Shown one piece after another: positions 282 to 3,767 of a stretch of 64,000 nucleotides of DNA (positions are counted from its first letter, which is position 1; the number at the start of each line of letters is the position of its first letter). Origin of the DNA: Roseitalea porphyridii (GTDB lineage Bacteria; Pseudomonadota; Alphaproteobacteria; Rhizobiales; Rhizobiaceae); contig NZ_CP036532.1 in NCBI RefSeq assembly GCF_004331955.1, forward strand, positions 3,249,501 to 3,313,500, read 5' to 3'. The position numbers were made by a program, and so were the translations under genes. Below the pieces are notes generated by a model. The model had not been told where the DNA came from. It saw only the letters and a list, made by a program, of their open reading frames with translations, and did not search any database.

Positions 282-295
282 TTGACATGGATCAA
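282..295. promoter_or_regulatory. FNR/FixK-like box upstream of RiPP precursor
   Basis: The sequence TTGAC-ATGG-ATCAA matches the FNR/FixK dyad TTGAT-N4-ATCAA with one substitution, and it fits the looser rhizobial FixK pattern. It ends 58 bases before the precursor start codon, a reasonable place for an activator site. Control by low oxygen would suit genes for two oxygen-sensitive radical SAM enzymes. This is a motif match only. Confidence 0.45.
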
Positions 296-353: not shown

Positions 354-737
354 ATGGCTGACGAAGTGTTGGATAAATTCACCGATCAGGCAATCCGCTT
401 GTTCGAAGAAGATCCGGATGCATCTCCCGAGCAGGCGAAGGCGGCGCGCATAGCAGCCGAGAAGGCGGCGGAGGCCGTCAGGGTCGACCAGCGCTCGCGG
501 GACGAAGAACTGCTGGAAATGCTCCGCACGCGAATTGCCGAAGAGGGCATGGAACCGCGCGCGCTGATCCGCGAAGTGTCCTTGCGCGCCAGTTCGGGCT
601 GCGACGGCCCCACCTGTGGCGTGGGTTGCGGGATCGGATGCGCCGGCGGCTGCCTGATCGGCGGGGCCACCCTGGTCGGCTTTGGCGCAGCCGGAGGCAC
701 GACGGGCGGTTCAGGTACCTCGATCGCCTTGAGCTAG
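354..737 (+). CDS. Cys-rich RiPP precursor peptide
   Basis: 127 residues. The ATG at 354 is chosen because AGAGGAG precedes it; an open frame extends upstream, but its earlier start lacks a ribosome site and it would cover the promoter. Residues 1-78 are a charged Ala/Glu/Arg-rich, probably helical leader. Residues 83-100 carry five cysteines (83, 88, 92, 96, 100) spaced CX4CX3CX3CX3C and separated by Gly, Val, Ile and Ala. Residues 101-127 are a Gly/Ser/Thr/Ala tail with no cysteine. A leader plus Cys/Gly core directly upstream of two radical SAM/SPASM genes is the layout of sactipeptide or ranthipeptide precursors, where Cys sulfur is joined to a neighbouring residue's carbon. I do not recognise this family by name. 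The leader/core boundary near Ser80-Ser81 is a guess. Confidence 0.7.
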   Translation: MADEVLDKFTDQAIRLFEEDPDASPEQAKAARIAAEKAAEAVRVDQRSRDEELLEMLRTRIAEEGMEPRALIREVSLRASSGCDGPTCGVGCGIGCAGGCLIGGATLVGFGAAGGTTGGSGTSIALS

Positions 738-883
738 GCGCCTGCTGCTTCGCGCGGCAAGGCGTCGCCCGGCCCGATCCCGGATGAGCGAGTGAGGGCC
801 GGCAGGCTCACGCAGTTGCTGCCATGGACGGATGCAAGCGGCTGGCACGCTGACCCGGCCCCGCGCCCAGGGAGGATCGCGTC

Positions 884-2416
884 ATGGACGGAACGTCACA
901 AAGCCGGGTAACGCTGACCTTCGAGAGTGATTCCGGTCGCTCCTACCTTTACGATGACGTCACCGGAAACATCTTTCCGTGGAACCCGCTCCGGGAAGCT
1001 GTCCTGAAAGCTGATCTTGACGGGGAACCGGAAGAAGGGCGTCAGGAGCTCCGACGGCGATTTTCCGAGCGTGACGTGACCGCAGCGGAAGAGTTCGTCC
1101 GGCGGTGGCGAAGCCTGTACGGGGCCTTCGTCCGCACGACGGGGCCCGGCCCCGCGTTTCGGGTTCCATCGGCGCGGGAACTGGAAAGCCATATTCGCGG
1201 CGGTTCGTTTGCACTGATCCTGATCCTGACGGAAAACTGCAACCTGCGCTGCGGCTACTGCTCGCTCAGCGAGGTCTATCCCCTCAACCGCGTACGCACG
1301 GCCCGGCGCATGACGATGGAGACCGCGCGGCGGGCGGTCGACTGGTACGCCGATCTGGTCGCCCCGCAACGCGCAAGAAACCCGCGCAAACGCTTTGGTC
1401 TGAGCCTCTATGGCGGCGAGCCGATGCTCAACATGCCAGTCCTGCGCGGCATCCTGGAGTATTGCTCCCAGACATATCCCGGCCTGTTTCTGCCGGTGAT
1501 GACGACCAACGGCACCGCGTTGACGCCACGGAACGTGGAAACGCTGGTCAAGCACGATGTCCTCGTCGGCATCAGCATCGACGGGCCCGCCGAGGAGCAT
1601 GACCGGCTGAGGATCGACTCGCGGGGCCGCGGAACGTTCGACGCAATCGCGAAGAACCTGCGTCACATCAAGGACAACCATCCCGAATACTGGAAGAACA
1701 AGCTGACGTCGGTCTCCGTTTACGACTGGGGAACCGACCTTGAGGCCGTCGATACGTTCTTTCGGGAGAACGAGGACATCATTCCCCGTTCGGTCTTCGT
1801 CAACCAGGTCGGTTCGCGCAACACCGATTGGTACGAGCAATATGGTCCCGACGACGCCGGCATTATGGTCGAGCGGCTCGAGCGACTGCGCCAGAGCTAC
1901 AAGAAGGCCAAGATCGGGAACCAACGGACGAGCCACTATTCGAACTGCCTGATCGGCATGGGCATTTCGATGGTCATGCTTCGACAGCGGGCGCTCGACC
2001 AGCGCGCCGGTTTCCTGCCCTTCACAGGCACCTGCGTGCCGGGTGACAAGCTGGCCGTGCATGTCGACGGCAAGATCGACATGTGCGAGCGCGTCAGCGG
2101 AGACTATCCGCTGGGCCATCTCGACCAGGGCGGCATCGACTATGACCGCGTCAGCGAAATCATCCGGGAGTATCAGGACCGGGTGATGGGCTACTGTCAC
2201 CAGTGCGCCAACACCAAGCATTGCGGCATGTGTTTCTCGCTGGCCGAAACGGCCGACGGCTTCGCCAAGGAGGCCGGGCGATGTGCCGCCATCGCCGATA
2301 ACGCCAGACAGCGGATGGCCGACTTCATGAGCATCATGGAAGGCAATCCGGAAGCCGATCTGCAGTTCGAATCCGATACTTCGATGCTCGAGCAACGGAT
2401 GCTGTTCCAATACTGA
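884..2416 (+). CDS. Radical SAM/SPASM peptide maturase
   Basis: 510 residues, ATG preceded by GGGAGGA. The radical SAM cluster motif CX3CX2C is Cys119, Cys123 and Cys126 (CNLRCGYC), and LYGGEPML follows as the SAM-binding GGE motif. The C-terminal SPASM domain is complete: a CX11GX4C pair, then YCHQC...HCGMC (CX2CX5CX2C) and a last Cys, enough for two auxiliary Fe-S clusters. The N-terminal 110 residues (SGRSYLYDDVTGNIFPW) resemble the start domains of RiPP maturases that may bind the leader, but a recognition fold is not certain. It sits 146 bases after the precursor and 10 before a second maturase, so all three are probably co-transcribed. The expected chemistry is thioether formation or another radical modification on the Cys/Gly core. 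Confidence 0.85.
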   Translation: MDGTSQSRVTLTFESDSGRSYLYDDVTGNIFPWNPLREAVLKADLDGEPEEGRQELRRRFSERDVTAAEEFVRRWRSLYGAFVRTTGPGPAFRVPSARELESHIRGGSFALILILTENCNLRCGYCSLSEVYPLNRVRTARRMTMETARRAVDWYADLVAPQRARNPRKRFGLSLYGGEPMLNMPVLRGILEYCSQTYPGLFLPVMTTNGTALTPRNVETLVKHDVLVGISIDGPAEEHDRLRIDSRGRGTFDAIAKNLRHIKDNHPEYWKNKLTSVSVYDWGTDLEAVDTFFRENEDIIPRSVFVNQVGSRNTDWYEQYGPDDAGIMVERLERLRQSYKKAKIGNQRTSHYSNCLIGMGISMVMLRQRALDQRAGFLPFTGTCVPGDKLAVHVDGKIDMCERVSGDYPLGHLDQGGIDYDRVSEIIREYQDRVMGYCHQCANTKHCGMCFSLAETADGFAKEAGRCAAIADNARQRMADFMSIMEGNPEADLQFESDTSMLEQRMLFQY

Positions 2417-2426
2417 GGAGGGTCCG

Positions 2427-3767
2427 ATGCGCTATTTCGAGCTGGCGACCGATTGTTTTCTGGTCGAGGGGCAGAACGAGGCTGCCCTATACGACGTCCA
2501 TGGTGGCCGTCTGTTCCTTCTGGACCGGTCCGCGCATGAACTCCTGCGAAGCTGCGCGGACGGCGCGCCGGTACCCGATAATTCGAGCGAGGACGCAGTA
2601 GCGTTCCTGGACGCGTTGCAGGCCGCCGGCCTCGGCTTTTTCGACGACGCGGCCGCCGGCAGTGACAAGTTGCTGTTGCACCAGCCGATCGAATGGAAGG
2701 GCATGTGCATGACGCCGCCCGACTTCAAATCCGTCGACTGGCAGATCACCAACGCGTGCGACCTCGATTGCCGCTTGTGCGGTGATGACGACAAGACCCT
2801 GTCCTGGCAGAGCTGCCAGACATGCCTTCGGCGCGATGCCGGCGGCGCTGAAGCATGGATGCCCGAGGACCTTGAGGCCTTCATTGCCGATATCGCCAAT
2901 CTGGGCGTCGGCACGCTGCATATTCGCGGCGGAGAGCCGCTTCTCGCCTGGCAAAGGCTGGAGCGCATTGCACAGGCAGCAGCGGAGACGCCGCTTACAC
3001 TGGTCGTCACCACGACCGGTATGGGCCGCCCGGCGAACGATCTGATCGCTCTGGGAAAGGGCCGCCGGTTCGGCCTCAACATCGTGATGTTCGGACATGA
3101 TGACGAGACTTCCGAGACGGCGTGTGGCCGGTCCGGCGTGCTCGCGGCGCAGGTCGCCCTGATCGATGCACTGGTCGAGGCACAGATTGCCTTTTCCATC
3201 ACCTTCCTTCTGACACCGCTCACGCAGGGGCGCCGCAACGCGATGCAGGAATTCGCGCAGCGGCGCTGGCGGACGAGGCCGGCCTTCTCCGAGGTATGCA
3301 CACGTGAGGATGTGAAGAACGGGTTCCGGCTCTCCCATCTTGACGAGCGCGAACGAAAGCCACTGGCGCCGTGGGAGTCGCCCGAGATGTTCTTCTTTCG
3401 GGTCAGGAACAATACGTGCACCTCCGGCTTGCTCGAGATCGGCGCCGATGGCTTGCTGCGGACCTGTTCAGGGCTGCCGAAGGTCCACGGCGATGTCGGC
3501 CGGCAGGGCCTTGTGGCGGCCCTGTCCGGGACCGGTCTCTACGAAAGCTGGAAACGCGGCAAGAGCGACGTCGAACCGTGCCGGCGTTGCGCCCTGCGTT
3601 ATGCGTGCAGCGATTGCTCCTCATTCGAGTTCGCTGATCAGCCCGATGCCAATGCCAAGTCCGCCTACTGCGGATATGACCCCTGCGATGATACCGAAAG
3701 CGCAATTGAACGCGAGTGGACACCAACCTCGTTCGTGCGTCCCCTGCGACTGCGGGAGCGAGCGTAA
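2427..3767 (+). CDS. Second radical SAM/SPASM peptide maturase
   Basis: 446 residues, ATG after TGAGGAGGG. The radical SAM motif is CDLDCRLC (Cys111, 115, 118) and IRGGEPLL gives the SAM-binding GGE. An unusual extra Cys pair (SCQTC) lies about 14-17 residues after the cluster motif. The SPASM domain is intact: CX10GX4C, then PCRRC...ACSDC (CX2CX5CX2C) and later cysteines. The first 80 residues (ATDCFLVEGQNEAALYDVHGGRLFLLDRSA) have the look of a PqqD-like RiPP recognition element, so this protein may be the one that grips the leader. It is clearly different from the upstream maturase, which suggests two successive or two distinct modifications. No transporter or protease follows; the next genes run the other way. 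Confidence 0.85.
   Translation: MRYFELATDCFLVEGQNEAALYDVHGGRLFLLDRSAHELLRSCADGAPVPDNSSEDAVAFLDALQAAGLGFFDDAAAGSDKLLLHQPIEWKGMCMTPPDFKSVDWQITNACDLDCRLCGDDDKTLSWQSCQTCLRRDAGGAEAWMPEDLEAFIADIANLGVGTLHIRGGEPLLAWQRLERIAQAAAETPLTLVVTTTGMGRPANDLIALGKGRRFGLNIVMFGHDDETSETACGRSGVLAAQVALIDALVEAQIAFSITFLLTPLTQGRRNAMQEFAQRRWRTRPAFSEVCTREDVKNGFRLSHLDERERKPLAPWESPEMFFFRVRNNTCTSGLLEIGADGLLRTCSGLPKVHGDVGRQGLVAALSGTGLYESWKRGKSDVEPCRRCALRYACSDCSSFEFADQPDANAKSAYCGYDPCDDTESAIEREWTPTSFVRPLRLRERA

Follow-up and report, generated by a model that had tools for sequence, protein, structure and literature searches.

A three-gene locus of Roseitalea porphyridii predicted to produce a two-maturase sactipeptide with a five-cysteine core

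We describe a locus for a ribosomally synthesized and post-translationally modified peptide (RiPP) in a 64-kb stretch of Roseitalea porphyridii DNA, hereafter the window, which lies in a single 3.54-Mb contig. A gene for a Cys-rich precursor peptide is followed by genes for two dissimilar radical SAM/SPASM proteins (enzyme 1 and enzyme 2), and an independent near-copy of the trio, L027, is found in a Blastocatellia metagenome-assembled genome (MAG; JAHFUG010000051.1). We judge it probable, at roughly 0.7, that the locus makes a sactipeptide in the form of a nested hairpin with up to five S-Cα thioethers. Such a layout is already known: in both thuricin CD and thuricin Z/huazacin, CX3C-spaced precursors go together with two radical SAM enzymes. 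The features of the locus, in window coordinates, are as follows.

282-295, forward strand: candidate FNR/FnrL-type palindrome, TTGAC-N4-ATCAA, 58 bases before the precursor start codon
341-347, forward strand: ribosome binding site AGAGGAG of the precursor, read from the sequence
354-737, forward strand: RiPP precursor of 127 residues, an open reading frame (ORF) with an L027 homologue of identical Cys spacing
Precursor residues 1-82: charged, Cys-free leader
600-653, forward strand: five-cysteine stretch CX4CX3CX3CX3C, residues 83-100
654-734, forward strand: Gly-rich, Cys-free tail of 27 residues, with V108, A112, T116, S120, and A125 as proposed thioether acceptors
884-2416, forward strand: maturase 1 (enzyme 1), a CcpM/RumMC/TrnC-like radical SAM/SPASM protein of 510 residues, assigned from NCBIfam matches, Cys motifs, and 58% identity to L027
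2427-3767, forward strand: maturase 2 (enzyme 2), a divergent radical SAM/SPASM protein of 446 residues, assigned from a weak Radical_SAM match, Cys motifs, and 43% identity to L027

The precursor cysteines are residues 83, 88, 92, 96, and 100, and their CX4CX3CX3CX3C pattern occurs only once in all six frames of the window. A CxxxCxxC- and SPASM-bearing maturase adjoins this Cys-rich peptide, as is characteristic of sactipeptide loci, and both maturase genes lie on the precursor strand with 10 bases between them. The precursor gene is present as one copy in its own genome, and a search of 72,556 plasmid records with the precursor gave no match at E 0.1.

Evidence that the precursor is genuine and belongs to a real family comes from L027, whose host is of a distant phylum. 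When the 84,980 genomes of a species-genome collection were scanned for the enzyme 1 SPASM region, three loci (L027 to L029) were returned; an earlier scan of the genome collection with the enzyme 2 pair and N-terminal patterns found nothing. L027 has the same order of precursor, enzyme 1, and enzyme 2, and its precursor has its own GGAGG site and an intact CX4CX3CX3CX3C pattern with all five cysteines in register. In the core alignment, 28 of 43 residues are identical. Selection seems to act on the precursor peptide itself, because differences over the 43 aligned core codons number 11, 13, and 26 at the first, second, and third positions and 20 of the 28 identical residues are specified by different codons. 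A chance ORF was rejected as an explanation for the precursor on account of this conserved copy. Used as a query in five genomes, the L027 precursor retrieved the two known loci and two chance-level matches (E 0.3 and 0.5). After enzyme 2, L027 has genes for an ABC ATPase and for a putative permease, the latter without an NCBIfam match. No published account of L027 was found in the literature searched, which left out most subscription journals.

A preliminary description of this DNA had proposed a three-gene RiPP locus with two maturases unlike each other and a precursor carrying five cysteines as CX4CX3CX3CX3C ahead of 27 Cys-free residues. The residue positions agree with this, the two enzymes have undetectable pairwise similarity (BLASTP E 0.15) while each bears the radical SAM and SPASM cysteine motifs, and the trio, its order, and its cysteines are kept in one independent genome. 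The same description had advised looking for the trio in other genomes with a conserved Cys core and a variable leader, a pattern that holds for the one available pair (82 residues before the first Cys in the window precursor, 18 in L027), and would have counted precursor homologues mostly away from radical SAM genes, or without conserved cysteines, as refuting. The sole clear outside homologue, that of L027, adjoins both enzymes and has all five cysteines; it was located through enzyme 1, and few searches started from the precursor.

Enzyme 1 contains CxxxCxxC at residues 119-126 and a SPASM region of the form C384x11Gx4Cx36Cx2Cx5Cx2Cx16C467. This seven-Cys spacing is identical to that of the thuricin CD maturase TrnC (C383x11Gx4Cx36Cx2Cx5Cx2Cx14C464) except for the last gap. 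The best NCBIfam models were CcpM (TIGR04068, E 3e-58) and a radical SAM peptide maturase (TIGR04148, 1e-50), followed by the RumMC sactipeptide maturase (NF035951, 4e-45); the nearest solved structure was 5wgg (9e-19), named a radical SAM domain protein. Although CcpM and RumMC, both maturases of Cys-rich peptides, are among the best family models, the scores amount to less than half of their cut-offs (198 of 500 and 154 of 720 bits, respectively). SCIFF, Cys-every-fifth, and CXXX-repeat systems were considered and rejected, as the maturase cut-offs were missed (66.5 against 425 bits for SCIFF, 62.9 against 600 for the Cys-every-fifth protein CefB, and 50.2 against 350 for CXXX-repeat).

Enzyme 2 is more divergent. 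Its CxxxCxxC spans residues 111-118, and its SPASM region reads C331x10Gx4Cx37Cx2Cx5Cx2Cx17C415. These CxxxCxxC and seven SPASM cysteines are also kept in the enzyme 2 of L027, of the Acidobacteriota genome G1315, and of a huazacin-annotated locus of Ruminococcus albus 7 (hereafter R. albus). The Radical_SAM match (E 2.8e-6) falls slightly below the Pfam cut-off, which the L027 and G1315 proteins pass. A grasp-with-spasm maturase model matched weakly (2e-16), with its best stretch in the SPASM part, and a search against solved structures gave nothing better than E 0.2. At the N-terminus, residues 18-46 gave a weak PqqD-like match (E 0.085). Several cysteines fall at positions close to those of TrnD, the second thuricin CD maturase (111/115 against 109/113 and 385/388/394/415 against 383/386/392/412).

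We propose that enzyme 1, being TrnC/CcpM-like, would cleave S-adenosylmethionine and abstract α-hydrogens from residues of the Cys-free tail, and that the cysteines would then be joined to these residues as S-Cα thioethers. Enzyme 2, a TrnD-like partner by position and size, would bind the leader and enzyme 1 and raise activity; it may itself be catalytic because all its SPASM cysteines are kept. By analogy with the known systems, the cysteines would occupy the N-terminal arm and the acceptors the tail in a nested arrangement, most likely C100-V108, C96-A112, C92-T116, C88-S120, and C83-A125. Ring closure might start with the innermost ring and proceed outward, as it does in thuricin CD, where C13 of trn-α is joined first, to residue 21. 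The product would likely be membrane-active or otherwise antibacterial and be exported by way of genes located elsewhere.

The proposed pairing uses register +8, equal to the innermost ring span of trn-α. It selects V-A-T-S-A and is the only register with five identical non-Gly acceptors in the window and L027. With a sliding register mirroring the Cys spacing, register +8 had a P of 0.007 when the positions of identical non-Gly residues in the tail were shuffled 200,000 times. The +10 register of thuricin Z, when placed on the window tail, would need two glycines as acceptors. The V108/A112/T116/S120/A125 register is a prediction by analogy and not a result.

A number of observations weigh against the assignment as a sactipeptide and against its modeled details. 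When any register is allowed, P rises to 0.061, and with the window sequence taken by itself, 67% of shuffles fit at least one register. The third ring of trn-α leaves the strict i+4 register (acceptors 21, 25, and 28; accessible part of PMC3132745), and the accessible part of PMC8172795 says that the thuricin Z rings close from N- to C-terminus, the opposite order. The window precursor has no NCBIfam match at E up to 10, the huazacin peptide model NF037972 included, and enzyme 1 lies under the curated cut-off for all 25 listed of 62 families. The PqqD-like match is absent from enzyme 2 of L027, G1315, and R. albus. Predicted structures of both enzymes are poor (mean predicted local distance difference test scores of 48 and 51, from shallow alignments of 3 and 4 sequences); N-terminal strands followed by helices in these predictions would suit a RiPP recognition element, but too weakly to count. 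G1188 encodes an enzyme-2-like protein (19%); no enzyme 1 lies within the 12 kb inspected, and a different contig carries the single enzyme-1-like match of that genome.

The remaining points bear on specific alternatives. The PapB ranthipeptide maturase model matches enzyme 1 at E 1e-34 (119.9 bits, short of its cut-off of 340), so Cβ or Cγ links are possible, and the lachnocin and SCIFF maturase models match as well. The same enzymes could then make a ranthipeptide, linking the cysteines to β or γ carbons of tail residues, and α links are indistinguishable from β/γ links by sequence alone. We regard this outcome as unlikely. The gene layout and Cys spacing match those of thuricin Z and thuricin CD, both α-linked, and PapB- and SCIFF-type maturation is not known to involve a second radical SAM enzyme as partner. 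In freyrasin-type ranthipeptides the links go to Asp, and the window tail contains neither Asp nor Glu.

The SPASM domain of enzyme 2 raises a different concern for the sactipeptide model. TrnD has a three-Cys TWITCH domain, in contrast to the full seven-Cys SPASM of enzyme 2, which we do not file as TrnD; given these seven cysteines, its role may be other than that of a TrnD-type helper. Labor could be divided: enzyme 1 would form the four thioethers with even spacing, and a modification of another type, at the offset Cys83 or some other residue, would fall to enzyme 2. The retention of the enzyme 2 cysteines in all four loci named above is consistent with this, as are the CX4 offset that breaks the CX3 repeat in both the window and L027 and a small ORF with CX4CX3C beside a distant pair in G1274. 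R. albus, however, has a full-SPASM partner yet a CX3CX7CX3C precursor, which lacks the CX4 offset, and the radical cluster of the thuricin CD partner is dispensable; overall, such a division of tasks appears improbable. A rather unlikely extension of the sactipeptide model would have both enzymes catalytic, enzyme 1 closing four CX3C rings and enzyme 2 the offset fifth, in an oxygen-controlled Gram-negative product whose two-maturase line is shared by the host lineage and Acidobacteriota. If true, the product would surpass thuricin Z, with its four rings, in the number of nested rings. Independently of this extension, the probable sactipeptide assignment would take two-enzyme sactipeptide biosynthesis, studied in Bacillus, into Gram-negative bacteria, and it comes with a concrete prediction of five rings. 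Having a full SPASM domain instead of TrnD's reduced one, enzyme 2 would offer a natural case for asking whether the partner is a helper or a catalyst.

Export is a further point. The window genes lie between a TPR-like gene upstream and a ribose-type ABC operon downstream, with no adjoining transporter or peptidase, and the L027 permease had no match in the genome of the window at 0.01, in a search that did not extend to other exporters. Both observations would suit a peptide that stays in the cell as a metal/redox peptide or signal. We find such a role quite improbable, as an ABC ATPase and permease adjoin enzyme 2 in L027 and G1315, and RiPPs can use unlinked transporters for export.

Transcription of the putative sactipeptide locus probably increases when oxygen is low, through an FNR-type regulator acting at the predicted palindrome upstream of the precursor. 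Low-oxygen control fits O2-sensitive iron-sulfur enzymes. The only perfect copy of TTGAYNNNNRTCAA in the window is this one, against 0.18 expected in shuffles (at least one in 18 of 100 shuffles), and it is also the sole copy in a 19.8-kb stretch overlapping the locus (0.01 expected); these counts are post hoc, the search having been made after the box was noticed. No FNR-type site was found in the 13.3 kb of L027. Among the FnrL sites listed for Rhodobacter capsulatus are TTGACGCGGATCAA and TTGACCCAGATCAA (PMC4634722), and Dinoroseobacter has TTGAT-N4-ATCAA and TTGAC-containing sites (PMC5398030). The site forms used here were taken from these two papers.

Relatives of the pair are rare near the host. 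In a family sample of 199 genomes, enzyme 2 matched its own genome and, weakly, 16 others (E 7e-10 to 8e-4, best over residues 106-293). We set these 16 aside as generic radical SAM proteins after inspection of three loci (L003-L005), which we take by eye to be heme/PQQ-type and which lie beside a UspA-like gene. Enzyme 2 as such was found only in its own genome in the order (n = 397, cut 1e-8) and class (n = 289, cut 1e-9) samples. The phylum sample (n = 349, two-sequence profile, cut 1e-10) added one genome, G888, with a distant radical SAM pair; the four draws overlap. In this 1.5-Mb genome, the tandem radical SAM proteins each have an N-terminal extension of about 100 residues (L021 1085-3785). 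Within the genus, four of five genomes match enzyme 1 at 1e-6, and the three matches outside the window's genome (26-28% over about 155-220 residues) are, judged by these alignments, generic radical SAM proteins.

This sparse distribution could mean that an L027-type cluster was captured in part, lost its transporter, and is now decaying without making its product. Sampled relatives have no comparable enzyme 2, the four congeners have no close enzyme 1, and the adjacent transporter is missing. Decay nonetheless strikes us as very unlikely: the three frames are intact with catalytic cysteines kept, the FNR-type box and ribosome sites are present, and the GC content of the locus (0.634) is close to that of the window (0.640). 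GC at third codon positions is 0.75-0.78, against 0.83 in the neighboring ABC gene. A genomic island was rejected on composition, since these differences give no strong signal. Among plasmid records, the downstream operon is closest to Marinovum, Pacificitalea, and Tritonibacter (79-82%). The upstream neighbor is a divergent gene for a secreted TPR-like protein (L022 18546-19097, running into window position 97), with relatives of only 27-29% in the four congeners.

In a search of Acidobacteriota, 38 of 297 genomes matched at 1e-12 or better; we inspected the loci of the four genomes below 1e-40 (that of L027 and three others), two further places in G1152, and six further enzyme 1 stretches. 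G1315 encodes a C-terminal fragment of enzyme 1, enzyme 2 (40%), an ABC ATPase, and a permease (39%), with no recognizable precursor at this locus, which looks like a rearranged or chimeric point. In G1274, enzyme 1 runs off the contig end and enzyme 2 (22%) is followed by a small ORF and an ABC exporter-like protein. This ORF, with CX4CX3C, comes right after enzyme 2 on the same strand (L136 4927-5139); small Cys-rich ORFs of other patterns adjoin radical SAM proteins elsewhere in G1274 (L156 4288-5847 and L155 364-2015). Blastocatellia G1152 encodes additional radical SAM/SPASM-type proteins, named by eye (L138 2672-8270, L055 4956-6026, and L158 3657-5906), of which one has an ABC exporter-like protein on one side and a sigma-54-type regulator on the other, and another lies beside a 99-residue Cys-rich ORF.

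The other two loci from the collection scan, which like that of R. albus are distant two-maturase loci, pair enzyme 1 with a small ORF carrying CX3CX3C (L028, a Clostridia MAG) or six cysteines, all CX3C (L029, Pseudopropionibacterium); enzyme 2 is broken or split in both. In Pseudopropionibacterium it is interrupted by a gene that we label by eye as transposase-like (L029 8396-10768). The peptides of L027, L028, and L029 gave no NF037972 match at E up to 0.001. The R. albus 7 plasmid pRUMAL03 encodes two identical CX3CX7CX3C peptides annotated as huazacin family, which match NF037972, together with enzyme 1 (28%), enzyme 2 (26%; 21-26% by alignment), and an ABC transporter gene.

A scan of viral contigs gave at least 600 stretches and at least 129 relatives, of which the best 80 were kept, yielding 79 loci. 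At E 1e-5, weak matches to enzyme 2 occurred in 27 of these 79 IMG/VR loci, and no precursor-like ORF was seen among the 25 of them that were listed; phage records gave no enzyme 2 match. Seven of the 79 contigs bear repeat ORFs rich in CX3C and CX2C, mostly lying no more than about 2 kb from the radical SAM match, as if phages encoded Cys-repeat peptides together with maturases. The ORFs are listed below.

L130 6284-7228: viral Cys-repeat ORF
L074 935-1642: viral Cys-repeat ORF
L090 3368-3841: viral Cys-repeat ORF
L133 10386-11090: viral Cys-repeat ORF
L129 1429-1635 and 5522-5836: viral Cys-repeat ORFs
L116 7743-7958: viral Cys-repeat ORF
L119 8999-9547: viral Cys-repeat ORF

Comparison with known systems places the locus among two-maturase sactipeptides. 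The preliminary description recognized no named class with two maturases and such a core, a view that thuricin CD and thuricin Z/huazacin contradict; its suggestion of a new sactipeptide- or ranthipeptide-like product stands insofar as a thioether RiPP is well supported, and falls short in that the two-maturase layout was already known. Our comparison set the enzymes against TrnC/TrnD and ThzC/ThzD by published descriptions, with the huazacin-annotated R. albus pair, in which both enzyme types are present, as a sequence proxy. Like these systems, the window has two dissimilar radical SAM genes, a CX3CX3C core, and TrnC-like seven-Cys spacing in enzyme 1; an ABC transporter in the cluster is absent beside the window genes and present in L027 and R. 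albus.

Thuricin CD shares with the window locus a TrnC-like seven-Cys enzyme, a second radical SAM protein, a CX3CX3C core, and a first ring spanning +8. It differs in having two precursors with three rings each and a TWITCH partner. A 2011 mining study found 15 thuricin-CD-like clusters across three phyla, and the accessible main text of that paper does not name "proteobacteria" (PMC3132745). Thuricin Z/huazacin (thzA, thzC, thzD) likewise has two unlike radical SAM enzymes per precursor and a nested S-Cα hairpin, with rings Cys16-Asp26, Cys12-Thr30, Cys8-Tyr34, and Cys4-His38, as given in the accessible part of a 2021 review that also cites 16 proteobacterial sactipeptide clusters from the mining of anaerobes (PMC8172795). 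Its Cys4/8/12/16 form CX3CX3CX3C, the spacing of the last four window cysteines. Unlike the window locus, it lacks the fifth, offset Cys and has a doubled precursor gene and ABC transporters in the cluster, and the HuaA model does not match the window precursor. L027 is alike in precursor core, both enzymes, and gene order, and unlike in its short pre-Cys region, the ABC ATPase and permease that follow, and the lack of an FNR-type box. The fifth Cys, the seven-Cys SPASM on both enzymes, the long leader, the absence of an adjacent transporter, and the FNR-type box set the window locus apart. We conclude from sequence comparison that the locus would be of the two-maturase sactipeptide type and that, as far as searched, what is new lies in the five-Cys core, in the lineages that host it, and in a partner enzyme with a full SPASM domain.

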